Positions 1 to 24,783 of a stretch of 64,000 bases of DNA are shown here, in pieces. Every line of letters starts with the position of its first letter. The stretch's first letter is position 1. Origin of the DNA: Plastoroseomonas hellenica (GTDB lineage: Bacteria; Pseudomonadota; Alphaproteobacteria; Acetobacterales; Acetobacteraceae). The position numbers and the translations under genes are program-made. Location: contig NZ_JAAGBB010000031.1 of assembly GCF_018129085.1 (NCBI RefSeq), positions 1 to 64,000 on the forward strand, in the 5' to 3' direction. A model generated the notes under the pieces. That model searched no databases. It saw only the letters and a program-made list of their open reading frames with translations, and was not told the origin of the DNA.

Positions 1-3000
1 GTCCAGACCCAGCCCGTCCAGCTGCGCCTGATCCAGACCCGACAGCGGCACATCCGACGGCGTCAGACCCCGCGGCGCAGTCCCGCAATGCGCCACGATC
101 TCCTGCAGCGCCGCCCCGAACCCCGCCGCCAGCCGCTCCACCGTCGCCCGGTCATGCCGCCTGCGGCTGTAGCTCCACCCCAGCCGCAGCCGGCCCTCGC
201 GCACCATCCCATCCACCGTAAGCCAGGGCCCGAGCGGTGCCATGGGGCTGCGGGATGCGCCGATATCCTCGTCCGCAAGGGCGAAGCGCCCGCCGTGGCC
301 GAAGCTGCCGTCGAACTGGCCGAGATAGTTGAAGCGCAGCCGCGGCGCCGGCAGTGCTGCGAGCGTCGCCCGATCCTCAGCGCTGCCGAGCTCGCGCAGC
401 ACGCCATAGCCCAGGCCGCGCCGCGGCACGCTGCGCAGCTGCTCCTTCACCTGCCGGATCAGGGCGCCCGTGTCCGACGCGACCGGGAGCCGCAGCGGGA
501 AGGTTGTGGTGAACCAGCCGACACTGCGGGAGAGGTCCACAGCCGCGAACAGATCCTCGCGGCCATGTCCCTCCAGCTCCATCAGCACCGCGTCCTGCCC
601 GCTCCAGGCACTCACCGACCGCGCCAGCGCCGCCAGCAGCAGGTCGTTCACCTGCGTCCGGTACGCCGCCGGTGCCTCCCGCAGCAGCGCGGCGGTCAGC
701 GCTGGATCGAGCTCCAGCACCACCTCTTCGGCATCGGCCAGACGATCGGGGCCTTCCGGGACGCGGTCGCTAGGCAACCCCTCCGCCACCCGCTGCGCCT
801 GCCACCAGGCAAGCTCGCTGTCGCATTGCCCGGCCAGGGCACGCAGCCGCGACGACCAGGCGGCATGGCTCTCCGTCCGTGCCGGGAGGGCTGCGCCGTC
901 GATGGTGGTCTGCAGATCTTCCAGCAGCACCCGCCACGACACGCCGTCCACGACCAGGTGATGGATCACCAGCAGCAGCCGCTGACTGCCATCGGCCAGA
1001 TCGAAGCCCACCGCCCGCAGCAGCGGCCCCGCGGACAGGTCCAGGCTGCGCTGCGCCGCCTCGGCCACCGCCGTCATCGCCGCGCCGTCGGTGATCGCGC
1101 GCCGCCAGAGCAGCGCCGCTCCCTCCGGCACCGGCCCAGGCTCCGCCACCCAGCTGCCACCGTCCTGCCGGAAGCGCAGTTGCAGCGCCTCGTGATGCGC
1201 CACCAGCGCCAGCAGCGCCGCCTCCACCGCGGCCCATTCGAGCCGGGCCCGCGGCCGCAGCAGCATCGCCTGGTTCCAGTGGTGCCGATCCTCCGCGACC
1301 TCGGCGAAGAAGCGTTGCTGGATCGGCAGCAAGGGCAGCGGCCCGGCCGCGACCGGCGCCGCCGCCGCGCCGCGCACCGCGGTGGCCACCGGTGCCAGCT
1401 GCCGGATCGTCTGCTTCTCGAAGATCTGCTTCGGCGTCAGCCGGATCCCGCGTTTGCGCAGCCGCGCAATCACCTGCAGGCTCAGGATCGAATCCCCGCC
1501 CAACTCGAAGAAATTGTCGTCGCGCCCGACGCGATCCAGCCGCAGCACCTGCTGCCAGACCGCCGCCAGCGCCTCCTCCACCGGCCCCGGCGGGGCGGCG
1601 AAGGCCCGGTCCGGCCCGGTGGCGGGCGCAGGCAAGGCGCGCCGGTCCACCTTGCCGTTCGCGGTCAGCGGCAGCCGCTCCAGCACGACGAGCCGCGCCG
1701 GCACCATGTAGTCCGGCAGCGCCGCCGCCAACGCCACCTGCAGCGCCGCACCATCCACCTGGCCCGCCACATAGCCGACGAGCTGCTGGCCCGAGGCACC
1801 GTCCTGCGCCAGCACCACAGCATCTTGCACGCCCGGCTGCTGGCGGATCACCCGCGCGACCTCGCCCGGCTCCACCCGGTAGCCGCGGATCTTCACCTGC
1901 TCGTCCACCCGGCCGAGGAAGCGGATCAGCCCGTCGGCACCGCGGACCACCCGATCCCCCGTGCGGTACAGCCGCTCGCCCGGCTCCCCATAGGCGTCCG
2001 GCACGAAGCGCTCCGCCGTCAGACCGGGCTGGCCCAGATAGCCACGCGCCAGCTGCGGCCCGCCGAGGTAGAGTTCCCCCGCCACACCTGGCGGCACCGG
2101 GTTCAAGCCCGCATCCAGCACATGCGCCCGCAGATTGGCCAATGGCCGCCCCACCGGGATCACCCCCTCCGGCGCCGTCAGAACCTCGTGCGTCAGCACG
2201 CCCACCGTCGTCTCGGTCGGCCCATAGTGGTTGACGATCCGGCACTCCGGACGCCGCCGCCGCACCTCCGCCACCAACGCCGGATCGCAGGCCTCGCCGC
2301 CCAGGATCAGCAGCCCGCGCGGCAGCACATCCGCGCCTTCATGCGCCTGCAGCAGCCCGCGCAGATGGCTCGGCACGATCTTCAGCACATCCACCGCGCC
2401 CTCGCGCATCCGCCGTGCGAAGGCCTCCGCATCGCCGGTGGTGGCGGCATCGAGCAGATGCAGCGTCGCACCCGAGGCCAGGGCGCCGAACAGCACCGTA
2501 TGGCCGAGATCCGCCGCCGGGGTGGAGACCATCGCCATCGCCCCCGCCGACGGCTGCAGGCGGTCCAGCATCGCCTGCACGTAGTTGGCCAGCGCGCCAT
2601 GCGAGACCGCGACACCCTTCGGCTGGCCGGTCGAACCCGAGGTGTAGATCACATAGGCCGTCTGCCCCGGATGCGGGTCGACCGCCGGCGGCGCCTCCGG
2701 CTGCCCGGCCAGCAGCGCGGGATCCGCGAGCGCCGTCGCGGGGATGCCCGCCGCCTGCAACGCAGCCAGCCCGGCGCCATCGGCCAGCACCTGCGCAAGC
2801 CCGGCAGCCGCCGCGACCTGCGCCAGCCGCGCCGCCGGCCAGGACGCATCCAGCGGCACATAGGCCGCGCCCGCCTTCAGCACACCGAGCAGCGCCGTCA
2901 CGAAGCCGGCGTTGCGATCGGCGCAAATGCCGATGCGCGCCTCGGCAGCGATGCCACGCGCCGCCAGCCAGCCCGCGATCGCGTCGGAACGCGCCCAGAG

Positions 3001-6000
3001 CGCGCCATGGCTCAGCCGCACCTGCCCGTCATCCACCGCCGGCAGCGGCGCGCGGCCGGCCGCAGCCGCCGCCAGCAGCGGCAGCAGCGTCGCCTGCGGG
3101 AAGGCCTGCGCCTCCACCGGTACTGGCGCCGTGTCCGGCCAGGGCAGCGCCTGCAGCGGCAGATCGGCCTCCGCCGCCACCGCGTGCAGAAGGGCGGCGA
3201 GATCCGCCGCCATGCGCCCGACCGTCCTGGGGCCGAGGATGTCCACCGCGTACTGGAAGGCCAGGTCGAGGCCGGCCTCATCCTGCGTGACATCCAGCGC
3301 GAGATCGAAATGCGCGCCGCCCTGGCCGGGCTGCTGCATCTCCGCGCGCAGCCCGGCCGCCAGATCGATCGCGGCGGGTGCCGCCATGTAGTTGAACTTC
3401 GCCTGGAACAGCGGGTTATGCGCCAGGCTGCGAGGCACCTGCAGGGCATCGACCAGCGCGTCGAAAGGCAGGTCCTGATGTGCCAGGGCATCGAGCATCA
3501 GCCGGCGGCTGCGGGCGAGCAGACCGGTGAAGCGCGCGGCACCATCCAGCCGGCCCGGGAAGACAAGCGTGTTGACGAAGCAGCCGATCAGTCGCGCGGC
3601 CGCGGCGTGCTGGCGATTCGCCACGGGGATGCCGATCCGCACCTCCGCCTGCCCGGAATAGCGATGCAGGAGCAGCTGATAGGCGCTGAGCAGCAGCATC
3701 GGCAGCGTCGCCTGGTGCTGCGCCGCCACCCGGCCCAGCGCAGCGGTCAGCACCGGGTCAAGCCTGTGGCGCAGCACCGCGCTACGATGGCTCTGTGTCG
3801 CGGGGCGCGCCCGGTCCAGCGGCAGCGTCAGCACCGGATGCTCATCGCCCAGCGTCGCGCGCCAATAGGCGAGCTGGCGGTCCTGTTCGCCCGCGCGCAG
3901 CCAGTCGCGCTGCCAGGCCGCGTGGTCGCCGAACTGGATCGGCAGCGGCGGGTTCTCCGCCTCCGGCGCGCGATAGAACGCCGCCAGATCGTCCAGCAGC
4001 ACCTCCATCGACAGGCCGTCGACCACGATGTGATGCGCGGCCAGCAGCAGCGCATGGTCGTCCGCGGCGAAGCGCAGCAGCTCCGCCCGCAGCAGCGGCC
4101 CGGCGGACAGATCGAACGGCACCGCCAGCTCCGCCTCGATCTGCGCGGCGAGCGCCGGGGCGCGATCCTCCACCGCGAATGGCAGCTCCCGTCGCCGCAA
4201 GATCAGCGCGGCATCGTCCCGCACCTGCTGCCGCGGGCGATCCTCGCCGGCGTGGAAGGTGGTGCGCAGCACCGCATGCCGTTGCATGACCTGCACCAGC
4301 GCGCCCTGCAGGCGGGCTGGGTCGAGATCGCCCGTGAGGCGGATGGCGGCGGCGACGTTGTAGGCGGTGCCCGCCGGCTCCATCTGCCAGAGGAACCAGA
4401 GCCGCTCCTGCGCATGCGAGAGCGGCAGCGCCGTGCCCGGCGGAACCGCTGCCGGCGCGCTGGCAGGCGGGCCGGCGGCGGCCAGCAGTGATGCCAGCTT
4501 CGCGGCGAAATCGCCGAGTCGCGGCAGCTCGAAGAGCAGCCGCGCATCGATCGCGATGCCGAACCGGTCCTGGATGGCCGCCGCCACCTCGGCCACGCCG
4601 ATCGAGCTGCCGCCGAGCATGAAGAAATCATCCTCGGGCGCCACCTGGTCACGCTCCAACGCCTGGCACCACATCGCCGCCACGACATCCAGCACCGCGG
4701 TCCCCGGCATGGTGGCAGGCGGCTCGCGCAACTTCCCGCTCTCCAGCACCGCGAAGGCGTCGAGCGTGCCATCCGCCAGGCCGGCGGCGCAGGCAGAGCG
4801 CTGCAGCTTGCCGCTGGTGGTCATCGGCATGGCGTGCGGCGGCAGCAACGCCACCAAGGCGGGGAATTCGTCGCAATGCCGCAGAACGATGCGGCCGATC
4901 GCCTCGGCCAGCGCTGCCGGGCCGGTCTTGCGTCGTGCCAGCGGGCCGATTTCAACGGCAACGCCGATGGCCTCGCGCCCCTGGGCTTCCACGGGGAAGA
5001 CGGCGATGCGGCCGCGCCGCGCCGGTTCGAACGCCTCCTCGATCACCTGCTCGACATCCTGTGGGTAGATGTTCTGCCCGCGGATGATCAGGATGTCCTT
5101 CCGGCGGCCGGTGACATGCAATGCGCCGTCGCTCAGGAAACCCAAATCGCCAGTGCGCAGCCAGCGCCGGCCCGCTTCCTCGAAGAAGGCGGCCTGGCTC
5201 GCGGCTTCGTTGTGCCAATAGCCCTGTGCCAGGCTTGGGCCGGCAACCTGGATGTCGCCGATGACGCCATCGGCAACCGGCACGTCGTCGATGACGATCC
5301 GGAGCGCATGGTCTGTCCGGACTTCGCCGCATCCCACCGAGCGCAGGCCGTCTTCCGTCGGCAATGCCTCTCCCCGCCCGAGAGCGGCGGGATCGAGACT
5401 GATGATGCGCGCCCCGGTCATCGCCCTGCCGCCGGTGACGAAGAGCGTCGCCTCGGCCAGGCCGTAGCAGGGGTTCAATGCGCGAGCATCGAATCCCGTC
5501 GGCGCGAAGCGCTGCGCGAACCGGTCCAGCGTCGCGGCACGCACCGGTTCGGAGCCCGAGAAGGCCACGCGCCAGCGGTGCAGATCGAGATTGCCGAGCG
5601 CTGCGTCCGGAACCCGCTCGGCGGCCAGGCGGAATGCGAAATCCGGGCCACCGCTGATAGTGGCACCCGCATGGCTGATCGCCTCCAGCCAACGGCGCGG
5701 CCGCTCCAGGAATCGCTGGGGCGACATCAGGGTCACGGAGAAGCCGACATAGAGCGGCAGCAGCAGGCCGCCGATCAGTCCCATGTCATGATAGAAGGGC
5801 AGCCAGCTAACGCTGACATCCTCCGGCGTCGCGCCAAAGGCCGCCGCCATCGCAGCCTCGTTGGCCAGCAGATTGGCATGCGTGACGCAGACACCTTTGG
5901 GCCGGGCCGTCGAGCCGGAGGTGTATTGCAGGAAGGCGATCGCCGCCGGATCAGCCATGACGGGACGCCAGCCGGAAGGCGCGACGGGAGCCACATCCTC

Positions 6001-6414
6001 CACCGCCAGCAGCGGTGCATCCCCGGCGGCGCCCCAGGCTTCGATCGCCGGGAAAAGCAGACGCGTCGTGAGGATCACCGCCGGTCGCGCATCCAGCATC
6101 ATGCCACGCAGCCGCTGGTCCTGGCTGACCCGGCTGCTGCCCGGCGGGTAGGCCGGTACGGCGATCACGCCGGCGTAAAGGCAGGCGTAGAAGGCCACAG
6201 CATAGTCGATGCCGCTCGGGAGCAGCAGCATGGCGCGACCGCCTCGCGGCACCAGCCCATGCAGTCGGGCCGCCAGAGCGCGGCTGCGTGCATCCAGCGC
6301 CGCATAGGCGATGTCGACCGGCGCCGCATCGCCATCGAGGAAGCGGATCGCCAGGGATGTCGGCCGCATGGCCGCGTGGCCGGCAAGCCGACCTGCCAGA
6401 GAATGATCAGACAT
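1..6414 (-). CDS. Lipopeptide-siderophore NRPS, FAAL-ACP-C-A(Asp)-PCP-E, 3' end outside window
   Basis: Non-ribosomal peptide synthetase that should load a fatty acyl chain and condense it with a first amino acid in the cytoplasm. The frame is open from ATG 6414 to the window edge (2138 codons). Domains in order: fatty-acyl-AMP ligase (about residues 1-580, with the PAYPPG stretch near the N terminus), ACP with GGSSI and pantetheine Ser604, condensation domain with HHIVVDG at 794-800, adenylation domain (A10 motif NGKVDRRAL, Lys1588), PCP with GGDSI and Ser1642, then an epimerization-type domain with HHLVVDG at 1818-1824. The binding-pocket residues read D-L-T-K-I-G-H-V-G-K (first Asp is residue 1302), which matches known aspartate codes; His at the seventh position favours Asp over Asn. 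The hydroxylase gene lies 40 bp upstream in the same operon. Further modules must follow beyond position 1. Substrate and E-domain calls are inferred from motifs. Confidence 0.93.
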   Translation of the reverse strand, partial: MSDHSLAGRLAGHAAMRPTSLAIRFLDGDAAPVDIAYAALDARSRALAARLHGLVPRGGRAMLLLPSGIDYAVAFYACLYAGVIAVPAYPPGSSRVSQDQRLRGMMLDARPAVILTTRLLFPAIEAWGAAGDAPLLAVEDVAPVAPSGWRPVMADPAAIAFLQYTSGSTARPKGVCVTHANLLANEAAMAAAFGATPEDVSVSWLPFYHDMGLIGGLLLPLYVGFSVTLMSPQRFLERPRRWLEAISHAGATISGGPDFAFRLAAERVPDAALGNLDLHRWRVAFSGSEPVRAATLDRFAQRFAPTGFDARALNPCYGLAEATLFVTGGRAMTGARIISLDPAALGRGEALPTEDGLRSVGCGEVRTDHALRIVIDDVPVADGVIGDIQVAGPSLAQGYWHNEAASQAAFFEEAGRRWLRTGDLGFLSDGALHVTGRRKDILIIRGQNIYPQDVEQVIEEAFEPARRGRIAVFPVEAQGREAIGVAVEIGPLARRKTGPAALAEAIGRIVLRHCDEFPALVALLPPHAMPMTTSGKLQRSACAAGLADGTLDAFAVLESGKLREPPATMPGTAVLDVVAAMWCQALERDQVAPEDDFFMLGGSSIGVAEVAAAIQDRFGIAIDARLLFELPRLGDFAAKLASLLAAAGPPASAPAAVPPGTALPLSHAQERLWFLWQMEPAGTAYNVAAAIRLTGDLDPARLQGALVQVMQRHAVLRTTFHAGEDRPRQQVRDDAALILRRRELPFAVEDRAPALAAQIEAELAVPFDLSAGPLLRAELLRFAADDHALLLAAHHIVVDGLSMEVLLDDLAAFYRAPEAENPPLPIQFGDHAAWQRDWLRAGEQDRQLAYWRATLGDEHPVLTLPLDRARPATQSHRSAVLRHRLDPVLTAALGRVAAQHQATLPMLLLSAYQLLLHRYSGQAEVRIGIPVANRQHAAAARLIGCFVNTLVFPGRLDGAARFTGLLARSRRLMLDALAHQDLPFDALVDALQVPRSLAHNPLFQAKFNYMAAPAAIDLAAGLRAEMQQPGQGGAHFDLALDVTQDEAGLDLAFQYAVDILGPRTVGRMAADLAALLHAVAAEADLPLQALPWPDTAPVPVEAQAFPQATLLPLLAAAAAGRAPLPAVDDGQVRLSHGALWARSDAIAGWLAARGIAAEARIGICADRNAGFVTALLGVLKAGAAYVPLDASWPAARLAQVAAAAGLAQVLADGAGLAALQAAGIPATALADPALLAGQPEAPPAVDPHPGQTAYVIYTSGSTGQPKGVAVSHGALANYVQAMLDRLQPSAGAMAMVSTPAADLGHTVLFGALASGATLHLLDAATTGDAEAFARRMREGAVDVLKIVPSHLRGLLQAHEGADVLPRGLLILGGEACDPALVAEVRRRRPECRIVNHYGPTETTVGVLTHEVLTAPEGVIPVGRPLANLRAHVLDAGLNPVPPGVAGELYLGGPQLARGYLGQPGLTAERFVPDAYGEPGERLYRTGDRVVRGADGLIRFLGRVDEQVKIRGYRVEPGEVARVIRQQPGVQDAVVLAQDGASGQQLVGYVAGQVDGAALQVALAAALPDYMVPARLVVLERLPLTANGKVDRRALPAPATGPDRAFAAPPGPVEEALAAVWQQVLRLDRVGRDDNFFELGGDSILSLQVIARLRKRGIRLTPKQIFEKQTIRQLAPVATAVRGAAAAPVAAGPLPLLPIQQRFFAEVAEDRHHWNQAMLLRPRARLEWAAVEAALLALVAHHEALQLRFRQDGGSWVAEPGPVPEGAALLWRRAITDGAAMTAVAEAAQRSLDLSAGPLLRAVGFDLADGSQRLLLVIHHLVVDGVSWRVLLEDLQTTIDGAALPARTESHAAWSSRLRALAGQCDSELAWWQAQRVAEGLPSDRVPEGPDRLADAEEVVLELDPALTAALLREAPAAYRTQVNDLLLAALARSVSAWSGQDAVLMELEGHGREDLFAAVDLSRSVGWFTTTFPLRLPVASDTGALIRQVKEQLRSVPRRGLGYGVLRELGSAEDRATLAALPAPRLRFNYLGQFDGSFGHGGRFALADEDIGASRSPMAPLGPWLTVDGMVREGRLRLGWSYSRRRHDRATVERLAAGFGAALQEIVAHCGTAPRGLTPSDVPLSGLDQAQLDGLGLD

Positions 6415-6454
6415 GGAGCCGATGACCTGTGCCTGCGGCAAGCCGCGCTGCGGT

Positions 6455-7432
6455 TCAGTGCTGGCCGTGCGCTTCCGCCATGGCCACGATGACCTTGCGC
6501 GGCCCCTTGAACGGGGCGCGCGCATGCGCCGTCAGCATGTTGTCGAGCATCATCACGTCGCCCGCCTGCCACGGAAAGCTGATCAGATGCGCGTCCAGCA
6601 CGGCGCGCACTTCGGACAGCACGCCATCGCCGATCGGCGTGCCGTCGCCATAGAGAACATTGCGCGGCAGATCTTCCTCATCGACGATCTCCAGCAGCGC
6701 CTCGCGCGTTTCCGGTTCGAGGTTCGAGACATGGAAGAGATGCGCCTGGTTGAACCAGACCATGTCCTGCGTCGCCGGATGACGAGCGACGCCCTGGCAG
6801 ATCTGCCGTGTCCGCAGCTCGCCATCCTCCTTCCATTCGCATGCAATGGCGTGGCGGCGGCAATAGGCCTCGACCTCGGCATGGTCCTCGGTGCCAAAGA
6901 CCTGTTGCCAGGGTAGGTCGAGCCCATTGCCGAAATTGCGCACATACATCAGGCCGCGCTCGGCGAAGCGCTCGCGGATGGCGGGGGGCATCTGGCGGTA
7001 GATGGCGCGGCTGTCGGCGATCGGGGTCTCGCCTCCCTCCGGCGCCGGCTGCATGCAGTAGAACCAGATCTTCATCGGCCAGTCGCGGGTGTAGGCCTGC
7101 TCGTTGTGCAGCGGGATGTGCTGGTGCGGTGGGTACTCCGTGGAGGTGTAGACGCCCTGCGTCACCTTGCTGCGCGGCGTCGAGCCGAATTCATAGGTCA
7201 GCAGCGGATGGCCGAAGCCGGCCGCAAAGCCCCGGAAGCCATCAGCGCCGTCGAGCGCCAGGCCGCGGAATATCAACCCGCCATAGCGGGACAGGTCGCG
7301 GTCGGCGATCTCGCGCGCCAGCGGCAGCGCCTGCTCCGTTGGCAGGCCAGGCGGCACCTCGACCAGCATCGGCAGCGGTTGCGCCTCGGCCAGGGGACGC
7401 AGGACAAAGGCATCCGGCTTCACCGTGTGCAT
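6455..7432 (-). CDS. SyrP/TauD-family Fe(II)/2-oxoglutarate dioxygenase, probable aspartyl beta-hydroxylase
   Basis: A 325-residue TauD/TfdA-fold dioxygenase. His109-x-Glu111 (in PLHNEQAY) and His303 (in LTAHAR) form the expected iron-binding triad, and Arg312 is placed to bind 2-oxoglutarate. In SyrP-like relatives these enzymes beta-hydroxylate aspartate held on an NRPS carrier domain. The neighbouring NRPS has an aspartate-type adenylation pocket, so formation of beta-hydroxyaspartate, a bidentate Fe(III) ligand, is the simplest reading. The gene is 40 bp upstream of the NRPS and 68 bp downstream of the thioesterase gene, all on the same strand. The family assignment is firm. The substrate is inferred from context. 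Confidence 0.88.
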   Translation of the reverse strand: MHTVKPDAFVLRPLAEAQPLPMLVEVPPGLPTEQALPLAREIADRDLSRYGGLIFRGLALDGADGFRGFAAGFGHPLLTYEFGSTPRSKVTQGVYTSTEYPPHQHIPLHNEQAYTRDWPMKIWFYCMQPAPEGGETPIADSRAIYRQMPPAIRERFAERGLMYVRNFGNGLDLPWQQVFGTEDHAEVEAYCRRHAIACEWKEDGELRTRQICQGVARHPATQDMVWFNQAHLFHVSNLEPETREALLEIVDEEDLPRNVLYGDGTPIGDGVLSEVRAVLDAHLISFPWQAGDVMMLDNMLTAHARAPFKGPRKVIVAMAEAHGQH

Positions 7433-7500
7433 CGCGAAGTCCCTCGCATTCGGCGGCCGCGTCGCGGCCGGACAGTGATGTCAGGAGGCCGTCCCGCCGA

Positions 7501-8241
7501 TCAGGTCGGGACCAGCCCGGCCAGGGCGGGCGCGTGCTGCATCTCCCGCTCCAGGCTGGATTGGATGGCCTGCAGCACCGAGGCGCGCTGGTCGTGGATG
7601 AAGAAATGGCCGCCTTCGAAAATGTCGATCGTGCAGCTCGTCCCCTCACGCCCCCACGCCTCGAGCGCAACACGGCTGGCCCTGTCCTGCCGACCACCCA
7701 GCACGTGCAGGCGGCAGGGCAGCGGCGGGCGCGGTCGATAGGCGTAGTGGCCGCACATGAGGAAATCCGCCCGCAACACTGGCAAGGTCAGCCGCATGAG
7801 ATCGGCATCGGCCAGCACTTCTTCAGGCGTACCCTGCAAGTCGCGCAACTCGGCCTTCAGAGCCTCGTCGCTGCGTGGCTGGCGTGAAGCGGTATCGTCG
7901 CGCACGGCCGGCGCTTCCGTACCCGAGGCGAAAAGCAGCAGTGGTGCGGGCACACCCCGCTCCATCAGCGCATGCGCCAGCTCGAAGGCGAGCAGCGCGC
8001 CGAGGCTGTGGCCGAACAGCGCATACGGCGCGCTCAGCGTCGGCGCGATCTCCGCCGCCAGGAAGGCGGCAAGCCCGTGCGGATCGGTCCAGAGCGGCTC
8101 GTCGGAGCGCTCACCCCGGCCCGGCAATTCGATCGGCTTGACCGTCACCCAATCCGGCAGGCTGCGCCGCCAGCGCGCGTAGACCGTCGCGCTGGCGCCC
8201 GAATAGGGAAGGCACAGAAGCGGGAGGCGCGTCGGCGCCAT
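7501..8241 (-). CDS. Type II thioesterase (alpha/beta hydrolase), NRPS editing
   Basis: A 246-residue alpha/beta hydrolase of the type II thioesterase family. The nucleophile elbow is GHSLG with Ser79; the likely acid lies in GGRQDR and the His in EGGHFFIH near the C terminus. Such enzymes free mis-primed carrier domains by hydrolysing stalled acyl groups in the cytoplasm. It starts 4 bp after the mbtH stop and lies upstream of the hydroxylase and NRPS genes, so it belongs to the siderophore operon. No signal peptide or membrane segment is visible, and length is normal for the family. Confidence 0.92.
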   Translation of the reverse strand: MAPTRLPLLCLPYSGASATVYARWRRSLPDWVTVKPIELPGRGERSDEPLWTDPHGLAAFLAAEIAPTLSAPYALFGHSLGALLAFELAHALMERGVPAPLLLFASGTEAPAVRDDTASRQPRSDEALKAELRDLQGTPEEVLADADLMRLTLPVLRADFLMCGHYAYRPRPPLPCRLHVLGGRQDRASRVALEAWGREGTSCTIDIFEGGHFFIHDQRASVLQAIQSSLEREMQHAPALAGLVPT

Positions 8242-8245
8242 GACC

Positions 8246-8479
8246 CTAAGCCTCGGTCGACGATCGGGAGGCCTGCTGGTCCATATGCAGACGCAAGCTC
8301 AACGGACGCATATCGGTCCAACGCTGATCGATATGCGCCAGACACTCCTGCTTGGTGCCGGCGACACCCACCGCGGTCCACCCCGCAGGGATCTCCTTGA
8401 AGCCCGGCCAGATCGAGAACTGCTCCTCGTGATTCACCACGACCTGGAAGGTCACGTCATCGCTGTCGAAAACTGACAT
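8246..8479 (-). CDS. mbtH: MbtH-like protein, NRPS adenylation-domain partner
   Basis: A 77-residue MbtH-family protein. The family signature is clear: N-E-E-Q-[FY]-S-[IL]-W-P near residues 17-25, then P-A-G-W, and a central [10 protein letters not shown] segment. MbtH proteins bind adenylation domains and support their solubility and activity. It is the first gene of the minus-strand operon, about 67 nt downstream of the predicted transcription start, and the thioesterase gene follows 4 bp later. Confidence 0.95.
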
Positions 8480-8551
8480 GGCTGTCCCTTACTGCGCACC
8501 CGCGACGGCCCGCACGGGCCCTTCGATCGGTCGAGCGTCGATCGGCAGTCA

Positions 8552-8580
8552 CATGATAATGACTCGCACTTGCATGTCTA
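8552..8580 (-). promoter_or_regulatory. Promoter with Fur-box-like operator for the mbtH-TE-hydroxylase-NRPS operon
   Basis: Read on the minus strand, TAGACA (8580-8575) and TATCAT (8558-8553) are separated by 16 nt and match -35/-10 elements at 5 of 6 positions each. The spacer and -10 region contain the core TGCGAGTCATTATCA. The 11-mer TGCGAGTCATT recurs in the promoter of the divergent siderophore operon at 8817-8827. Position and sequence suggest an iron-dependent repressor site (Fur-like). The identity of the repressor is inferred. Confidence 0.55.
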
Positions 8581-8809
8581 AGCACGGCGTCGTGATGGGC
8601 ACAATCTTCGATTAGGGAATCACACGGAAGCGAGAGCTTCGCGGCCACCGTGCCAAATCCAAGGGACTGCAGGCACAGCATCGGGGCACCTGTCGCGATC
8701 GCTCTGGTGCTCTTTTCCATAGGCGGTCGCATGCACCATTGCAGAACGATGGCAGCGCGAGGGCTGTGTTCTGTTCTGAACACGGATACGGGAGCACTCC
8801 GTCCTCGAC

Positions 8810-8838
8810 TTGACAATGCGAGTCATTCGCAGAAATGT
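8810..8838 (+). promoter_or_regulatory. Promoter with matching Fur-box-like operator for the acyltransferase/monooxygenase operon
   Basis: A perfect -35 TTGACA (8810-8815) is followed by a near-palindromic core (8816-8831) containing TGCGAGTCATT at 8817-8827. The -10 around 8833-8838 is weak. The 11-mer is identical to the one in the divergent promoter. Because this element overlaps the most upstream possible TTG start at 8810, it argues for a start of the acyltransferase at ATG 8888 or 8900. Iron regulation is inferred. Confidence 0.5.
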
Positions 8839-8887
8839 CTGGCCGCCCTCTCGTTGTCTGTCGATGGCGTCACCCCAAGGCCCGGGA

Positions 8888-9994
8888 ATGAAGGTCGCAA
8901 TGACTGCAGAAGCGCACGTCCGTCCCCAGGACCAAGGCAACCGCTTCCTCGCAGGGCCAGGCCTTTCGCTGACCGTTGCTGTCGACGCGGGCTACCTGCA
9001 GGTGCAGCGGCGCGATGCCCCGCCTGCGGCATTCCGGCTGGACACGACGATCGGCCGCCTGTCGCCGCTCGCCTTGCCGGATGGGTTGGATGACGCCGCC
9101 ATCATGACGATGGCGGCGATCGAGGCGGTGCTTGCTCGGCAACCGGCGATGCAGCGGCTGCTGCTTGATGTCGCGACGCCTCCACAGCTGCTCCAGCGGC
9201 TCGGTGAGGACGGCGTCGTGACCTTCCAGGATGATTTCCCGCTGATCCTGCCGGAGATGTTCATGCAGCAGCCCGGCCCATGGATCGGTCGGACACGGTC
9301 ACCCTTCGCGCAGCGCTACGTCATGACCGGCGACAGGCGTCATCCGCAGCGCCCGCCGAAGCCATCCGGCGTGGTCTATGCGCGCTTCATTCCCTGGCTG
9401 GCCCAGACGATCCGCTTCCACGCCGCGACGCTCGAGGATCATCTGCCGCTGCTGCACCGATGGATGAATGACCCGCGCGTCGATGCCTTCTGGAATGAAG
9501 CCGGGTCGCTGGAGCATCACCGGCAATACCTGTCGACGCTGATCGCCGACCCTCACATGCTGCCGCTCGTCGGCAGCTTCGACGATGCGCCCTTCGGCTA
9601 TTTCGAACTGTACTGGGCGAAAGAGAACCGCCTGGCCCCCTTCTACGACGCGGCCGACTACGATCGCGGGTGGCATGTCGTGGTGGGCGAGGATGCTTTC
9701 CGCGGGCGCGATTTCATCAGCGCCTGGCTGCCATCCTTGATGCACTACATGTTTCTCGACGACTGCCGGACCCAACGGATCGTCGGCGAGCCGGCGGCGG
9801 CCCATCATCAGCAGCTCCGCAACCTCGAACGATCGGGCTTCGCCCGGATCAAGAATTTCTCCTTCCCGCACAAGCGCGCCACACTCGTGATGCTGCTGCG
9901 GGAGCGCTTCTTCGAGGATCGACTCTGGCTGCCGGCAGAGAGCCCGCAGGCCGCTTCGAGCGGCCTCTCAGCCCGCGCCGACGCGGTGCTCTGA
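8888..9994 (+). CDS. GNAT-type siderophore acyltransferase (N-hydroxy-ornithine/lysine acyltransferase)
   Basis: IucB/RhbD-like GNAT acyltransferase of about 368 residues that should acylate an N-hydroxylated diamine to make a hydroxamate ligand. The C-terminal two thirds carry the family pattern: H-x-W-M-N-D-P-R-V near the start of the catalytic domain, then G-Y-F-E-L-Y-W and a Y-D-R-G-W-H-V-V-V-G stretch. ATG 8888 was chosen over an upstream TTG at 8810 because 8810-8838 looks like promoter and operator; ATG 8900, preceded by GAAGG, is an equally possible start. The monooxygenase gene follows 15 bp downstream, making a two-gene operon divergent from the NRPS operon. Acyl donor and exact substrate cannot be read from the sequence. 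Confidence 0.88.
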   Translation: MKVAMTAEAHVRPQDQGNRFLAGPGLSLTVAVDAGYLQVQRRDAPPAAFRLDTTIGRLSPLALPDGLDDAAIMTMAAIEAVLARQPAMQRLLLDVATPPQLLQRLGEDGVVTFQDDFPLILPEMFMQQPGPWIGRTRSPFAQRYVMTGDRRHPQRPPKPSGVVYARFIPWLAQTIRFHAATLEDHLPLLHRWMNDPRVDAFWNEAGSLEHHRQYLSTLIADPHMLPLVGSFDDAPFGYFELYWAKENRLAPFYDAADYDRGWHVVVGEDAFRGRDFISAWLPSLMHYMFLDDCRTQRIVGEPAAAHHQQLRNLERSGFARIKNFSFPHKRATLVMLLRERFFEDRLWLPAESPQAASSGLSARADAVL

Positions 9995-10009
9995 CCCCAG
10001 GAGAATTCC

Positions 10010-11374
10010 ATGCCCGGCGGCTCTGCCCACCGGCCGGTCTTCGATGTCATCGGAATCGGCTTCGGTCCGTCCAACCTCGCGCTGGCGATCGCGCTCGATG
10101 CCATCGCACAGCGCGGGATGCCTGCGCCCAAAGCCCATTTCATCGAGAAGCAGGAGAGCTTCTGCTGGCATCGCGGCATGCTGCTGCCGGACAGCGACAT
10201 GCAGGTGTCCTTCCTCAAGGACCTCGTCACCCTGCGCGACCCGACCAGCCGCTTCACCTTCACCAACTATCTGCATCAGAAGGGTCGACTGGAAGCCTTC
10301 ATCAACCAGCGCAGTTTCTTTCCAAGCCGGATCGAGTTCAACGACTATCTCGGCTGGGCAGCCACGCAGTTCGACGCGTCCTGCTTCTACGGCGAGGAAG
10401 TCGTCGCCATCGACCTGGATCGCGGCGACGGATCGCCCGCCCTGCTCCGCATCGCGTCGCAGGACGCCGCGGGGCGCATGATCACGCGGCACGCCCGCGA
10501 CGCGGTCATCGCATTGGGTGGCTCGCCGTCCATTCCGCCGGTCTTCGCCTCTTTGCGGAAGGACCCACGCATCACCCACTCGTCGCGCTACCTGGACAAC
10601 ATCGCACCGTTCGAAGCGCGGCGATCGGCCGAACTGCGCCTGGCGGTGATCGGTGGCGGGCAGAGCGCGGCGGAGATCACCCTCGACCTGCATGGGCGCT
10701 TCCCGGAGGCCAGAATCGACCTGCTCTTCCGTGGGCAGGCCTTGAAACCCGCGGATGACACGCCGTTCGTCAACGAGATCTTCAATCCCGACTTCACCGA
10801 CTTCGTCTTTGCCCAGGCGGCGGAACGTCGCCGCGACATCCTGCAGGAGTTCCGCAGCACCAACTACGCTGTGGTCGATACGGCGCTGATCGAGCGGCTC
10901 TACGCCATCTTGTATCAGCAGACGGTCACCGGTCGTCGCCATCTCGCCTTGTGCCCCCGGCGCGAAGTCTGTGCCGCGGCACCCAGCCCGCAGGGCATCG
11001 TGCTCGATATCCGCAATCTGACGACAGGAGGGTCGGAATCGACACGCTACGACGCCGTCATCCTGGCAACAGGCTATGAGCGCAATATCCGGCACACCAT
11101 GCTCGCAGGTCTAGAGGACCAGGTGAAGGAGTTCGCCGTTCTCCGTGACTACCGTCTGCGCATGCAGCCGGACTTCCACCCACGCATCTTCGTGCAGGGT
11201 GCGTCTGAAAGCTCGCACGGGTTGAGCGACACCTTGCTGTCCGTTCTGGCCACCCGCGCGTGGGAGATCGCGACAGCTTTGGCCCGGCTTGCCCCCCCTC
11301 CTCCCGACATGCCCTCGCTGCCTTCGCTCTGCACGTCCCTTGCGACATATGACATCCGCCACCGGGGTGTTTGA
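10010..11374 (+). CDS. Flavin-dependent L-ornithine N5- / L-lysine N6-monooxygenase
   Basis: A 454-residue SidA/PvdA/IucD-family monooxygenase. It would hydroxylate the side-chain amine of ornithine or lysine with FAD, NADPH and O2 as the first step of hydroxamate formation. Visible features: FAD-binding GIGFGPSN at 15-22, the family block FLKDLVTLRDPTSRF near 69-82, NADPH-binding GGGQSAAE around 215-222, and a late ATGYERN motif. AGGAG lies 7 nt before ATG 10010. It follows the acyltransferase by 15 bp. Context favours ornithine, as in PvdA, but lysine is not excluded. Confidence 0.93.
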   Translation: MPGGSAHRPVFDVIGIGFGPSNLALAIALDAIAQRGMPAPKAHFIEKQESFCWHRGMLLPDSDMQVSFLKDLVTLRDPTSRFTFTNYLHQKGRLEAFINQRSFFPSRIEFNDYLGWAATQFDASCFYGEEVVAIDLDRGDGSPALLRIASQDAAGRMITRHARDAVIALGGSPSIPPVFASLRKDPRITHSSRYLDNIAPFEARRSAELRLAVIGGGQSAAEITLDLHGRFPEARIDLLFRGQALKPADDTPFVNEIFNPDFTDFVFAQAAERRRDILQEFRSTNYAVVDTALIERLYAILYQQTVTGRRHLALCPRREVCAAAPSPQGIVLDIRNLTTGGSESTRYDAVILATGYERNIRHTMLAGLEDQVKEFAVLRDYRLRMQPDFHPRIFVQGASESSHGLSDTLLSVLATRAWEIATALARLAPPPPDMPSLPSLCTSLATYDIRHRGV

Positions 11375-12409
11375 GCAGCCTTCAGCGAGACACGGATCGC
11401 AGCCGACGGGGAGATTGCAAGCCCTGCAGGCGGTCCCGCCGCCATGCCGCGGCCGGCATACGACGTTCCGGCAGGACCGCCTCCGACTGCCGTCGAAGAC
11501 AGATGACCGCGTCCGCTAGATGAGGATGCCGAAAAATGCTGCCGAGGCAGGTGGTGAATCCGCCACCCTGGAGACCGTCGCGACCGGGGCAGAGCGGACC
11601 TGATGACGCCAGGAGCAGCAACGCCGATCACGACACTCCGAGGCATTCCGGCTGGCATGTGAGCCCGCGGTTTGGTCTCCATGCTGAATTCCGGTCGCAG
11701 TGAAGGAGCCGAACGACCGAAGGAGCTACGCCGTGTGCGCTTGATGCTTGGCACCGCGTGCTGGATCGCGAGGAGCCCGACTGCGTCGGTTGGTGTCGGG
11801 GTGGTCCACGCGGGCGGGAAATCGGCGCCGGGCTGCTGGCGCTTCGCGGCATTGCCACGGGTGACGGTTATTCTGGCGGCTTGCCGGGGCGCAAATGCAA
11901 AAAAACGCTGTCGCTCTGGGGCGACGCCTTCGTGTGTATGGGAGCGGGGGACCGGATTTGATCTCAAATTGCGGTCGCAGCTTGAGGTGGTTTCGGGATT
12001 TGCAGCTATCTCAAATCGCTCGTTCGAGCTGCGGCGCGAACTGCCTTGCCAAGGTCGGGATCGAGAGTTCGAATTCCTGTCTCAGAACATTCTCTCTTCT
12101 CGAAGGCCGCGCGAGAGCGCCGGTGTCGCCGTTATTCGCGCGCGAACTTTGATGGTTTGCCCGCGAAACGAAAGAGCGTTTGGCTCTCGCCGCGCCTCTC
12201 TGTCTCCGAAGCTTGAGGGTTAGGCGATTTCACCCTCAAGGTTTAAGCAATCGATTGGTGGCATTGTAGGCGCGACGATACCGCCGATATTCAGCACGGC
12301 GATCGCTCCAGCGATTGGGCCGCTGGTAACCGCCGCGGCTTCACCCTCGAGCGTCATCGCGCCTGGTCTGTCAACAACCACAGTAAACAAAGGCTTTCTC
12401 TTGGCGAAA
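11375..12409 (+). other. Intergenic stretch without a recognisable gene
   Basis: Several overlapping open frames exist on both strands, but none has a credible ribosome binding site or a recognisable fold. The part around 11900-12250 is less GC-rich than its surroundings. The one clear structure is the hairpin at 12212-12240, listed separately. The stretch separates the siderophore locus from accessory genes. Confidence 0.5.
12212..12240 (+). repeat. Perfect 9-bp inverted repeat (hairpin)
   Basis: Arms CTTGAGGGT (12212-12220) and ACCCTCAAG (12232-12240) are perfectly complementary across an 11-nt loop. No T-run follows, so it is not a canonical rho-independent terminator. It could be an operator or a recombination remnant. 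Confidence 0.45.
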
Positions 12410-12562
12410 ATGCCCCCTCTCCCGCCCGCAGGCCGCGCACCCGTCGGCGGCAAAAATGCCAGCGGCAAGACCAACCCGAAGGACGCGCGGTCCACCAGCG
12501 GCGCCGGCAATGGCAAACAGGCCGGCGTCTCCAAGATGACGCAGAGCACGCGAAGCCGGTGA
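12410..12562 (+). CDS. Small basic Gly/Ser/Lys-rich protein, 50 residues
   Basis: A 50-residue open frame from ATG 12410, strongly basic and low in complexity (many Gly, Ala, Ser, Lys and Asn; no hydrophobic core), so probably disordered. TTG 12401 is an alternative in-frame start. Its TGA stop (12560-12562) overlaps the GTG start of the next gene at 12559, an arrangement typical of translational coupling. The composition and coupling are the only evidence that it is real. No family is recognised. Binding to a nucleic acid would fit the charge but is speculation. Confidence 0.4.
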   Translation: MPPLPPAGRAPVGGKNASGKTNPKDARSTSGAGNGKQAGVSKMTQSTRSR

Positions 12563-13098
12563 GCGATTCAGAGCGGCTTCCCCCTGGCCAGGCCCCCCTC
12601 GACAAGGACCATGTTTTCGCCCGGTTCGAACGTGGCCCAGAGCTGCCGGACCGACGCGAGCAGCTGACCGTGCGGGGCCGGGCCGGCGCCACGGGCACCA
12701 GAACGGTCCAGGTGGTGCATGTCCGATCGGGCCGGTCCGCAGCCTCGCTCAGCGAGCCACGATTCGACAGACAGGTTCGCGCGGCATCGTGGGAGCATGG
12801 CTTCGCAACCAAGCCCGTCGTGCCGACAGCGGTTCTGGCCGAGGCAGCACCCTCGAAGCCGATATGCCACATGATGCCGGCGCCGGCCCGGATCCTAGCG
12901 CCACCAGAAGTCGTCGAGCCGCTCGCCGCGGCGCCTCTGTTCGCGGCTCCCGCCAAGCGTCAGGCTCGCGGCGCGTCCAGGCGCGTCGCCGATCCCTTCG
13001 ACACAGCGGACGATCGTGCGAACTGCATCCGGTGCGGGTATGCGGTTGCGCCAGCGCGGGAGAAGCGCGGGTTGCTGACGTGTGCGAGGTGCGGATAG
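12559..13098 (+). CDS. Hypothetical protein with C-terminal four-cysteine zinc ribbon
   Basis: A 179-residue protein starting at GTG 12559 and overlapping the stop of the upstream 50-codon gene. The last 24 residues carry C156-x2-C159 and C175-x2-C178 (CIRCG and CARCG), a compact zinc ribbon. The rest is Ala/Pro/Arg-rich and probably disordered. The coupling and the intact cysteine ribbon at the very end support a real gene. Function is unknown; zinc ribbons of this size usually mediate nucleic-acid or protein contacts. Confidence 0.55.
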   Translation: MSDSERLPPGQAPLDKDHVFARFERGPELPDRREQLTVRGRAGATGTRTVQVVHVRSGRSAASLSEPRFDRQVRAASWEHGFATKPVVPTAVLAEAAPSKPICHMMPAPARILAPPEVVEPLAAAPLFAAPAKRQARGASRRVADPFDTADDRANCIRCGYAVAPAREKRGLLTCARCG

Positions 13099-13174
13099 AG
13101 CTTCGCACAGGACTCAAACAATCGCTGTGCCCATCAGCGGCCGGCCGCCCTTGCCGCCCGCTCGATGCGCCCAG

Positions 13175-13469
13175 GCCTTGGCATCGGTGCTGGTTGGGCG
13201 GGGCAATCCGCCGATCACCGCTGATGACGTGATGGAGCTCGCCGGTGTCCAGCGCGGGACCACCAAGCCGCTGCACCGCCGCGAGCCCGCTGTGCCGGCC
13301 AAGATGATCTCGGACAACCAGCCCGAGGCACGGAGCCTACGAGCGCGCCCAGGACTGGATACACCTCATCGGCCGGGTGGTCTGGCTGGCGAGGGAAGAT
13401 TTAGCGCGCCCGCTGCACTTTGACTGGCGCCCAGCCTGGCAGAACCTCAGGCTTAGCGTTGTCCAGTAG
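13175..13469 (+). pseudogene. Frameshifted remnant of an unidentified protein
   Basis: Two adjacent plus-strand frames look like halves of one protein. The first runs through ITADDVMELAGVQRG to about 13310. After a shift, the second frame contains YERAQDWIHLIGRVVWLARE and RPLHFDWRPAWQNL and stops at TAG 13467-13469. The second half has a convincing amphipathic, Trp-rich pattern but is preceded by an in-frame TGA, so it cannot be translated alone. The family was not recognised. The overlap with a minus-strand frame (13401-13847) leaves some doubt about which strand once coded. Confidence 0.33.
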
Positions 13470-13847
13470 GATCAGCGCCACCTGTCCGCCATTCGGCACC
13501 CGCAGGACCCGGAAGCGATGGCCCGTCGGGAGGTTATGCCCCTTGGCGGGGCTCCATCGCTTGCGTGCACCGGCATCCATGACCTCAACGGAGTCACCAG
13601 ACAGAGCGGGAATGTCGCACCGGCCAAGCAACCGATAGCCGGACCGAAGGCGCCTCAACACGTCCACGATCACAACGCTCCTCCAACCCGTGATTGTTTT
13701 CGGGCGCCCTCCTGGCACATCCACGGGTGTAAGCGTGCTCGTCGCGCCCGTTGATTGCAGTACAATAACAAGTGAGCTGACCAGGTTTCCCCAGCCGACC
13801 CTTTCCCACCCATGGGACGTGATCAGGCCCGAAGGCGCTCCAGGCAT
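13401..13847 (-). CDS. Hypothetical protein, low confidence
   Basis: A 148-codon open frame whose C-terminal half has alternating hydrophobic and charged residues plausible for a small beta-rich protein (for example VVIVDVLRRL and QVALILLDNA). No family is recognised and no strong ribosome binding site precedes ATG 13847. It overlaps the end of the frameshifted plus-strand remnant, so one of the two calls is likely wrong. Confidence 0.33.
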   Translation of the reverse strand: MPGAPSGLITSHGWERVGWGNLVSSLVIVLQSTGATSTLTPVDVPGGRPKTITGWRSVVIVDVLRRLRSGYRLLGRCDIPALSGDSVEVMDAGARKRWSPAKGHNLPTGHRFRVLRVPNGGQVALILLDNAKPEVLPGWAPVKVQRAR

Positions 13848-13884
13848 AATGTGTGCCGGTGTCGCATGGTGAGGCGGCTGCCCT

Positions 13885-14112
13885 TCAGGCGCGGTAATCC
13901 CGATCCAGCGCCCGTTTCACGGCAAATGCGTCCACGTAGTTCGCAAAGCTGATTGCCAGCGGGACACGCTCGCCAGAAGCCGGATCGACCTCGAGGATCT
14001 GGTACGCAGCCGCAGGGGATGGCTTGTCGACCACGGTTATGACCAGGCGCTTAGCACCGTGGTCCGAACGCCAGTCATCCGCCAAAGAGCCTTCCGAGTC
14101 TCGTAAAGCCAT
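13885..14112 (-). CDS. Small hypothetical protein, 75 residues
   Basis: A 75-residue protein with a good ribosome binding site (GGGAG, 6 nt before ATG 14112). The sequence reads as a small alpha/beta domain: an N-terminal acidic segment, a beta-like stretch RLVITVVD, a second strand YQILEVD, and a C-terminal helix with FAVKRALD. No signal peptide or membrane helix. The family is not recognised and no partner is apparent. Confidence 0.55.
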   Translation of the reverse strand: MALRDSEGSLADDWRSDHGAKRLVITVVDKPSPAAAYQILEVDPASGERVPLAISFANYVDAFAVKRALDRDYRA

Positions 14113-14544
14113 CTGAATCTCCCGCGGAGCACGCCGCGTAAAAATATCAGACGTGGCCCGCTAGGCTCCTTCATCTTTCCTGGAGCAATCCGGGCAGTGA
14201 GCGGCAGATCCTGAATAGATGAGCCAGCCCGCGCCTGGCGCCATAGTACGGCCGGGAACAGGCGAGTGCTCACCCCGAGAAAACGGGCCGTGGATGGCGC
14301 AGCGGCCGCGCTCTTCACCACCGGAATAGCGGCGAGAGCACCGCGGCAAGGCGCTCTGGTGCACCACGCGCCCGGACCTCTTCGCCCCCGCGCTTGCCCG
14401 GGCTGGCCTAGCGGCTGATCCTGCCGATGATCAGCGCCAGGATGACCATCGCGGGCACCAGCATGATGCTCAGCCTCCTAGCCTGCGGTGGCTGGCGCGA
14501 GTGGCCGCGACTGTCGGAGCGCTGAGTCCGGTCTCGGAATAACT

Positions 14545-14639
14545 TTACACACATTTCGCGGATTGCGTGTAAGGCTCCCCTATAGGTGGTACACTCTTGA
14601 TAATAAAGGATTTACACACAAAGTGCAAATTGTGTGTAA
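14545..14639 (+). promoter_or_regulatory. Two matching palindromes upstream of the nucleotidyltransferase gene (operator pair)
   Basis: Site 1 has arms TTACACACA (14545-14553) and TGCGTGTAA (14564-14572), complementary at 8 of 9 positions. Site 2 has arms TTACACACA (14612-14620) and TGTGTGTAA (14631-14639), a perfect match. Both have a 10-nt spacer, and their centres are 67 bp apart. Site 2 ends 30 bp before ATG 14670. The layout is that of a dimeric repressor binding twice around a promoter. The binding protein is not evident here. Confidence 0.6.
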
Positions 14640-14669
14640 GGATGGTACCATCTCCCCCAGGAGGTACCG

Positions 14670-20865: not shown

Positions 20866-21772
20866 TCGGAGCGGGCCGGGCCGCTCACCGCAGCAATCTG
20901 ATCTCCGCACGATCTGCACCGATGGGTAGCAGTTTGCCTGACAGTGATGACGGTCGCGCCTGAGACGGATCAGGAGAACACGGCCGCAAGAGGCGAGATT
21001 GATTGATGCGAGTTCGCGACCGACGGCATCCTTTCGCCATGTGGCCGCGCCCCTGAGCGCCACCAACCGCGCGGATCGGCGCGCCGGCGGCACAGACGAA
21101 GAGGAAGGCGATGTCGCCGGCGAAGCCGAGATCGAGCAGCGATCGAGAGCGCCTCCATCACCGCCCGCATCAGGGCGGCGGTTTCGCAGCGTGCCGTCCG
21201 CGGCGTAGCGCTCCGTCCAGATGGAGCCCTCAGCGGCGCCAACGAGGGTCGCGCCTTGATGAAAGGCATTGCGCAGTGCGAGGCCGGCGGCGGGCCGCGG
21301 CAGCAGGTCAGGCGAGAACAGCCCGGTGGCCATCACCGAGCGCGCCCGCAGTGGCACGCGTCGGCGCTGCACCGCCGGGTTCGTGCATCCCTGCCGGCCC
21401 TTGTCCCCTCTCCCGGAGCTGCCAATTCGATGAGCGGGCGCTCCAGCCCTCGGCGAGGCCGACCGTGCCCGCTAGGACCATCCAGCGCGCCATCCAGGCC
21501 TATGACGGCAGCGCCAGGACGCCAGCCTGAACGGCTCAGGTGCCCAGCCAGAGGCGCGGATCGGATGCGAACGGATCTGTCGACAGGACGGCTGCCTCGG
21601 CGCACGTGAATGCCGCGGATTCAGAAGCAGATTGGTCGCTGCTGGCGCAATTGCCCGCTCTGACCGTCAAAGCCCGACAGCGGCCCTTTACGGCGAGAGC
21701 GATCTCCCCAACCATGACCATTGGCGCGCTCGGGCTACGACGGTTCGGCCGGCACCGGCCTCGGGAGCGCTA
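20866..21772 (+). other. Long stretch with no recognisable intact gene
   Basis: Minus-strand frames here, for example around 21090-21370, contain protein-like pieces (LALRNAFHQGATLVG, ERYAADGTLRN) that switch frame, suggesting a decayed gene whose family was not identified. No plus-strand gene was found. The end of the stretch carries the GGGAG ribosome binding site for the methyltransferase at 21773. Confidence 0.4.
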
Positions 21773-22684: not shown

Positions 22685-22809
22685 TCGGCGCGGCATCACC
22701 GCACAGCACACCCCCGTATCCTCAGAGGCCCCCCGCGGTCGCACGATCTGCCACTCACGTCGCGGCGGCTGATCGCACCTTCTGTCACGCGTGGTAAAGG
22801 GATCCCGAC

Positions 22810-24557: not shown

Positions 24558-24783
24558 GCCTTGTCTTAGATCATTGATCGCATCCGTGATGCAGGTGGAT
24601 GCGGCATCGCTCCGCGAGGAGGATGGCGTGGAGACCATGGCCATCTGGGACAGCCTGCGGGTGATCACGCTCGCTTCGATGATCGAGTTCCACTACGACA
24701 TCGTGCTCGCCAACGCTGACATCGAGAATCTGACGAGCGTGCAGCGCGTGCGAGACGTGGTCGCCCGCTATGCTCAATCCTGA
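24556..24783 (+). CDS. Acyl carrier protein partnered with FkbH
   Basis: A 75-residue acyl carrier protein. The phosphopantetheine site is WDSLR with Ser33, lying before the conserved helix II. Acidic residues dominate helices II and III. It overlaps the start of the FkbH gene by 14 bp, so the two are translationally coupled. FkbH/ACP pairs convert 1,3-bisphosphoglycerate into glyceryl-S-ACP or handle similar small acyl groups, and here the thioester could feed modification of a surface glycan. The ATG shares bases with the divergent methyltransferase start. Confidence 0.8.
   Translation: MPCLRSLIASVMQVDAASLREEDGVETMAIWDSLRVITLASMIEFHYDIVLANADIENLTSVQRVRDVVARYAQS

Follow-up and report, generated by a model that had tools for sequence, protein, structure and literature searches.

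Gene content and described relatives

According to PMC13037486, synthesis of the marinobactins and formomarinobactin (fmb) starts with a fatty acyl-AMP ligase (FAAL), takes Asp first in a module with an epimerization (E) domain, uses a two-module first protein and incorporates hydroxyornithine (OHOrn); MbtH, TauD, a monooxygenase, a GNAT acyltransferase (or a formylase), a TonB receptor and a 2,4-diaminobutyrate (Dab) aminotransferase are also encoded, and the product has the six residues Asp-Dab-Ser-OHOrn-Ser-OHOrn. Tistrellabactin (mob, PMC10391617) is made with a stand-alone Asp hydroxylase, a carrier domain bearing a GGDSI motif, a GNAT enzyme and a monooxygenase; it has graminine modules and another module order, and no fatty tail was detected in the product. 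Variochelin (PMC10999976) and cupriachelin unite a fatty acyl chain, beta-hydroxyaspartate (beta-OH-Asp) and acylated OHOrn in one peptide, the variochelin hydroxylase being embedded in VarG and its assembly line including a polyketide synthase (PKS) module. The window analysed here, bases 1–64000 of the 76,996-base contig C31 in the 161-contig, 7.28-Mb genome of Plastoroseomonas hellenica, very probably carries the starting end of a biosynthetic cluster whose product is an acylated siderophore with mixed beta-OH-Asp/hydroxamate ligands; the remainder of the cluster would lie on contigs C118, C119, C105 and C37.

Four genes were located on the minus strand by open reading frames (ORFs) and Pfam, encoding an MbtH-like protein (8246–8479), a type II (editing) thioesterase (TE; 7501–8241), a stand-alone TauD/SyrP-like Fe(II)/2-oxoglutarate oxygenase (6455–7432; HxE at residues 109–111), predicted from Pfam and a tree to be an Asp beta-hydroxylase, and the first nonribosomal peptide synthetase (NRPS; 1–6414). 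The NRPS frame opened at 6525, the likely start being the ATG at 6414, 40 bases past the end of the TauD gene; it ran off position 1 as AMP ligase, acyl carrier protein (ACP), condensation (C), adenylation (A), peptidyl carrier protein (PCP) and E domains. Window base 1 is the end of the contig, so the NRPS stopped at an assembly break that cut its C-terminal part. The plus strand carried a SidF/MbtK-like GNAT N5-hydroxyornithine acyltransferase gene (8864–9994), similar to the N5-hydroxyornithine transacylase SidF among PDB sequences (E 1e-53), and a gene for a PvdA-like L-ornithine N5-monooxygenase (10010–11374), which matched by sequence PDB 3s5w, an L-ornithine 5-monooxygenase (E 2e-117). 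The GNAT frame opened at 8810, and 8864 or 8888 is the more likely start because the Inquilinus protein aligned only from residue 28. The two divergent gene sets named in an earlier sequence-only reading were thus each recovered by ORFs and Pfam. Its proposal of an acylated beta-OH-Asp/hydroxamate lipopeptide siderophore proved right in kind, given the FAAL-ACP start, the Asp module with a hydroxylase, and the Orn enzymes and modules.

That reading had placed the locus in the cupriachelin/variochelin style, whereas domain order and hydroxylase type were nearer to marinobactin and tistrellabactin. In domain order the nearest described kin is the marinobactin/formomarinobactin type, with which the FAAL start, the first Asp with E, the predicted OHOrn residues and the MbtH, TauD, monooxygenase, GNAT and TonB receptor genes were shared; a two-module first protein would be a further common feature. 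The part of such a first protein from FAAL to E is on C31; C118 (C-A-PCP) would follow, as judged from contig-end repeats and a code shared with G684, a class-mate genome. Unlike that type, the cluster has at least eight modules if the five contigs are linked, including a Gly module, and showed neither Ser nor Dab among six codes; five Pseudomonas loci with such a start, taken to be of marinobactin type, had DIWELTADDK in module 2, whereas DIEFIGAIAK was found here. The TauD protein was 63.6% identical over 231 aa to that at the Tistrella mobilis locus. In contrast to variochelin, the hydroxylase gene was stand-alone and fell in a separate branch from the fused TauD of Variovorax boronicumulans (43% identity), and no ketosynthase was found on the five contigs. 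Among loci L034–L036 of Inquilinus limosus, the divergent TauD-TE-MbtH/GNAT-monooxygenase block was present in L035 and L036 (L034 was cut before TauD), with identities of 76% for TauD and 59–61% for the monooxygenase; the I. limosus cluster differed by an extra fused TauD, by a shortened C-type domain ahead of its Asp module and by a gene for an exporter that lies between TauD and FAAL. To our knowledge, no product has been described for the I. limosus cluster.

Aspartate module and its hydroxylase

All domains of the first NRPS were read on the minus strand. The starter domain (5215–6375) matched FAAL models, below their whole-protein cut-offs, and was followed by an ACP domain with an LGGSSI motif (4486–4698, approximate bounds), a C domain in the lipid-accepting position of module 1 with HHIVVDG intact (3148–4428), an A domain with the code DLTKIGHVGK (1651–3069), a carrier domain with GGDSI (1393–1572), and a last C-family domain (82–1338) that was read as an E domain because HHxxxDG (as HHLVVDG) and EGHGR were kept. 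The pocket DLTKIGHVGK was recovered when seven A domains from this genome were aligned, and its earlier assignment to Asp, rather than to a different amino acid, stood: it is one residue off DLTKVGHVGK, which is listed for Asp and also for Asn (PMC12283262), and Asp is the likely substrate as judged from the code.

Six whole amino-acid A domains, with two further ones cut, were present on the five contigs, and their codes comprised two for Asp, one for Gly, two for modified Orn and one without assignment: DLTKIGHVGK (C31), DIEFIGAIAK (C118), DLTKIGHVGK (C119), DILQLGLI(W)K and DGEGSGGVTK (C105), and DGEGSGGVTK (C37). The bracketed W was read by eye from the alignment, and DILQLGLIWK is what we take to be a Gly code. 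Gly domains with MOX have the code DILQLGMIWK, and DGEGSGGVTK is listed among the modified-ornithine codes (both PMC12283262), the latter fitting the PvdA-like monooxygenase and the SidF-like acyltransferase; the acyl-OHOrn modules thus lie on C105 and C37. The A domains for Asp on C31 and C119 were 87% identical, which suggests that the assembly line grew by copying a module. The pocket DIEFIGAIAK, common to the distant genome G684, poses a defined question on substrate choice.

The tree of TauD proteins had 26 rows, 25 of them different since two represented the same Azospirillum gene, and one 54-aa Tistrella piece was dropped. The Plastoroseomonas enzyme grouped with stand-alone enzymes of I. 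limosus and G684 (support 99/94), inside a wider group of 16 rows, mostly stand-alone, that included the Tistrella enzyme (moderate support, 83/77). A separate branch (100/100) contained the fused TauD of V. boronicumulans and Inquilinus plus two second Azospirillum copies, one of which, from Azospirillum griseum, was stand-alone in a 346-aa open frame. The sequence-based grouping with Asp hydroxylases agrees with the earlier assignment to a type that forms beta-OH-Asp. The TauD at 346146–346838 of the T. mobilis plasmid pTM2 was taken as the tistrellabactin hydroxylase from its place beside mbtH and NRPS genes. In this plasmid record the TauD gene was interrupted, matching in two pieces in different frames (L131, 5989–6839), and the gene table for pTM2, itself incomplete, listed no protein at this place.

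GGDSI and then E followed both Asp A domains, on C31 and C119; GGDSI also followed the Orn-type module of C105 and occurred in the carrier with which C119 begins, and the motif alone is therefore not specific for Asp. In Tistrella, L-erythro-beta-OH-Asp is formed when the hydroxylase is stand-alone and the carrier bears GGDSI (PMC10391617), and since E follows GGDSI here, D-threo-beta-OH-Asp would be expected from both Asp modules. Some Asp may stay unhydroxylated, because the D-Asp/Asn of tistrellabactin does so with a GGDSI-type carrier (PMC10391617). An interface domain was considered as the partner of the hydroxylase and set aside, no extra C-family match occurring in C31 or C119.

Further modules, uptake genes and an iron-type motif

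A search of the genome for condensation domains gave 13 matches, two each on C31, C118, C119 and C1, three on C105, one on C37 and a partial one on C6. The layouts were C-A-PCP followed by C-A (cut) on C118, C-A-PCP followed by C-A-PCP-C-A (cut) on C105, and PCP-C-A-PCP-E on C119. The right end of C37 encoded C-A-PCP-TE, then an esterase, a TonB receptor, a periplasmic binding protein and a FecCD permease, with a cyclic-peptide exporter, an ABC ATPase and a siderophore-interacting reductase further downstream. Further modules and iron-uptake genes, on which the sequence-only reading depended, were thus both present, though on C118, C119, C105 and C37, and the TonB receptor that it had sought lay on C37 behind the terminal module. 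This receptor scored above the cut-off of TIGR01783 (TonB-dependent siderophore receptor), its best-scoring model being FhuA, below that model's cut-off. The cluster is a real lipopeptide siderophore cluster and, provided that the five contigs are parts of one locus, has at least eight modules. On C1, another NRPS-PKS cluster, separate from this one, was observed (L032, 5741–19324, ~27.7–41.3 kb) with the layout A-PCP, KS-AT-aminotransferase-C-A-PCP and C-PCP-TE (KS-AT, ketosynthase-acyltransferase), adjoining sugar transferase and outer-membrane protein genes.

Identical runs of 103 bases were shared by the ends of C31 and C119, the starts of C118 and C37, the starts of C105 and C37, and the ends of C118 and C105, and one of 88 bases by the starts of C118 and C105; we infer that equal lengths are what a k-mer assembler leaves on stopping at a repeat. 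Of the first 103 bases of C119, 101 agreed with a carrier stretch inside C105, and because of this near-identity further short repeat pieces must also be missing from the assembly. The bridge into C37 was absent from it. The numbers of junctions agree with two uses of C119, which gives nine modules; with a single use, an A-PCP piece that was not assembled is required, and the total is eight. A genome-wide search for the missing A-domain halves (PF00501 with E up to 1e-20, PF13193) found no additional contig on which condensation and AMP-binding matches occurred together; an AMP-binding match in a 1306-aa frame close to the start of C25 was left aside.

I. limosus was considered as an intact reference, but its cluster was split over contigs too, and G684, a single contig of 8.0 Mb, was used instead. 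It carries an unbroken homologous cluster of eight modules in the order mbtH-TE-TauD-[FAAL-ACP-C-A-PCP-E-C-A-PCP]-[C-A-PCP-C-A-PCP]-[C-A-PCP-E-C-A-PCP-E-C-A-PCP-C-A-PCP-TE]-esterase-binding protein-FecCD-ATPase-reductase-exporter-GNAT-monooxygenase (layouts of the Inquilinus and G684 loci keep the best of overlapping matches, and one Inquilinus layout drops matches below 60 aa except MbtH). The codes of modules 1 to 8 were DLTKVGHVGK, DIEFIGAIAK, DAWTVAGVCK, DILQLGLV(W)K, DGEGSGGVTK, DVWHFGRINK, DILQLGLV(W)K and DGEGSGGVTK, the bracketed W being an alignment gap filled by analogy. The two clusters share the gene set, the last code DGEGSGGVTK, a TauD 76% identical and, once C118 is placed after C31, the first-protein layout FAAL-ACP-C-A(Asp)-PCP-E-C-A(DIEFIGAIAK)-PCP. 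They differ in that the eight G684 modules include one Asp, the second Asp-E module (C119) being absent there, that the G684 GNAT and monooxygenase genes lie at the far end whereas here they diverge from mbtH, and that the G684 TonB gene was only 23% identical to that on C37. We know of no described product for the G684 cluster.

The C domain of C31 best matched the first C domain of G684 (50%) and that of C37 the last (62%), and for the second of the C105 proteins the best match was where the third G684 protein begins (59%); because of these matches and the shared code DIEFIGAIAK, the pieces were ordered C31-C118-C119-C105-C37. On this order, FAAL would load a fatty acid onto the ACP, and module 1 would join the acyl chain to Asp, which the stand-alone oxygenase would hydroxylate at C3 while carrier-bound and the E domain would invert to the D form. 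The monooxygenase would N-hydroxylate ornithine, the GNAT enzyme would acylate the N-hydroxyornithine, and the two DGEGSGGVTK modules would insert the acyl-OHOrn. The line would continue on C118, C119 and C105 and end on C37 with its thioesterase, C37 also supplying the exporter, TonB receptor, binding protein, FecCD permease, ABC ATPase, reductase and esterase. The most likely order, and the least certain part of the proposal, is acyl-D-(OH)Asp - X (DIEFIGAIAK) - X - D-(OH)Asp - Gly - acyl-OHOrn - X - [D-Asp if C119 is used twice] - acyl-OHOrn, most likely with eight or nine residues. A double use of the C119 module, through recent copying of the Asp-epimerase module, is possible but doubtful; the lipopeptide would then have nine residues, among them three D-(OH)Asp and two that carry hydroxamates, and could bind iron by alternative ligand sets or bind a second metal ion. 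If made, the product would be a new lipid-tailed iron carrier with beta-OH-Asp, a ligand type described as photoreactive in related siderophores (PMC10999976, PMC10391617).

Between the divergent operons, a promoter-like site for the mbtH operon, TAGACA-16-TATCAT, was found on the minus strand at 8553–8580 (one found, against a mean of 0.4 in shuffles). A motif scan located one operator-like site, GATAATGACTCGCACTTGC, overlapping it at 8555–8573 (plus strand) and a second, GCGAATGACTCGCATTGTC, before the GNAT gene at 8812–8830 (minus strand). The 11-mer AATGACTCGCA, derived from its two copies between the mbtH and GNAT starts, which are therefore not independent evidence, was then counted genome-wide: seven copies were present, none when read backwards, and 1.3 were expected from the base composition of the window. 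Pfam scanning of eight ORFs showed that two copies preceded receptor genes, one for a TonB receptor in which STN and plug domains were matched (C1) and the other for a receptor in which a plug domain was matched (C9), and that two more preceded fecI-fecR (C4) and exbB-exbD (C13, ~320 bases ahead); the seventh (C17:17712–17722) lay beside an isocitrate/isopropylmalate dehydrogenase-family gene, the sole ORF scanned there. This distribution suggests that AATGACTCGCA may be part of the operator of a Fur-like iron regulator and that the cluster may be under iron control. With a relaxed pattern, one extra site was seen in L022 (contig C1), downstream of a TonB-receptor match.

Competing readings, distribution and neighbouring genes

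Several observations weigh against the proposal as set out above. No contig spans the cluster in this genome, and the contigs were linked by way of repeats and homology. For C105, the first C domain fitted the second C domain of the first G684 protein best (58% vs 32% at its supposed place), the second C domain of C118 was 44% identical to the start of the third G684 protein vs 37% to the second, and C119 had no single counterpart, with 53–55% to four domains. A swapped order, C31-C105-C119-C118, fits the repeats equally, with only the shared DIEFIGAIAK favouring C118 first. That code was absent from the literature searched for the six codes, in which only DGEGSGGVTK turned up, and the pockets of the two cut A domains were unreadable. 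Two to three Asp and two hydroxamates exceed the six donor atoms needed by Fe(III), and some Asp may stay unhydroxylated for this reason as well. As to iron control, the best match to the Fur consensus in the 330-bp intergenic stretch was 12/19, a score that 40 of 2000 random stretches also attained, the top score in the whole window (13) was attained by 7 of 20 random windows, and the iron motif was absent from ten related loci (four in G684, three in Inquilinus, one in KBS0706, two in Azospirillum). As the sole basis for iron control, the Fur consensus scan was set aside as too weak, and the genome-wide 11-mer count was used next. The order of the residues is far less certain than the reading as a lipopeptide siderophore.

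It is unlikely that the five contigs represent two clusters, C31 and part of the middle contigs making one lipopeptide and C37 ending another hydroxamate siderophore: the assembly provides no physical link, and the separate cluster on C1 means that the genome has more than one NRPS system, but the contig ends share identical runs, the five contigs have one starter and one thioesterase-ended module among them, G684 has both halves on one contig, and similar pieces occur in I. limosus, split over contigs too. SyrP-like hydroxylases occur in non-metallophore pathways too (PMC12971057), and the product might then be a lipopeptide that serves another purpose, as a surfactant or a syringomycin-like antibiotic, and whose hydroxy-Asp does not bind metal. 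The hydroxamate genes on the opposite strand, the TonB receptor, binding protein, FecCD permease and siderophore-interacting reductase behind the terminal module, and the iron-type motif in the promoter make this very improbable. There is also little likelihood that this strain carries a genuine cluster that is nonfunctional or not expressed, which would be compatible with a siderophore as the encoded product; although several A-domain pieces are missing from the assembly and one code is unread, no stop codon fell inside the C or AMP-binding domain matches of the five contigs, and the HHxxxDG, EGHGR, carrier and TE motifs were present in whole domains.

Searches for TauD with strict cut-offs, in samples of genomes that do not cover all species, gave hits in 1 of 120 relatives (the genome analysed here and no other), in 2 of 299 genomes of the order (this genome and one at 43%) and in 6 of 385 of the class, this genome included; in the monooxygenase scan of named genomes 80 of 83 loci were kept. 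Horizontal arrival of the cluster is suggested because this spread is sparse and the closest kin lie outside the family. The class of molecule is well known, and rules for automatic detection of such clusters already exist (PMC12971057), but the present representative, like its probable sequence of residues, seems to be new. No lipopeptide siderophore from Acetobacteraceae, Roseomonas or Inquilinus was named in the titles and abstract openings of the literature searched, in which coverage of subscription journals was limited, so that this is not proof of absence. Three of the papers found dealt with siderophore activity or NRPS clusters in the family, or with Inquilinus as an antifungal isolate, and no such product was mentioned in the parts available: Acetobacteraceae strains were positive on chrome azurol S plates (PMC8146977), and a type-strain survey reported only NRPS-independent siderophore pathways, along with NRPS clusters of unknown product, one with eight modules (PMC8776678). 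If the host belongs to the Acetobacteraceae, the present cluster bears on this gap.

Elsewhere in the window, two ORFs tested in the ~3.3 kb past the monooxygenase gene (11375–14669) had no Pfam match, and the coding signal was weak. Surface-polysaccharide-type genes were present at 21632–26611 and 27512–31486; these stretches encoded a 1325-aa methyltransferase/glycosyltransferase fusion, WcbI-like and TylF-like proteins, and a 613-aa protein without Pfam match. A gene of the serpin (serine protease inhibitor) family was located at 46445–47452 (E 3.9e-53), with a very high third-position GC of 0.94.

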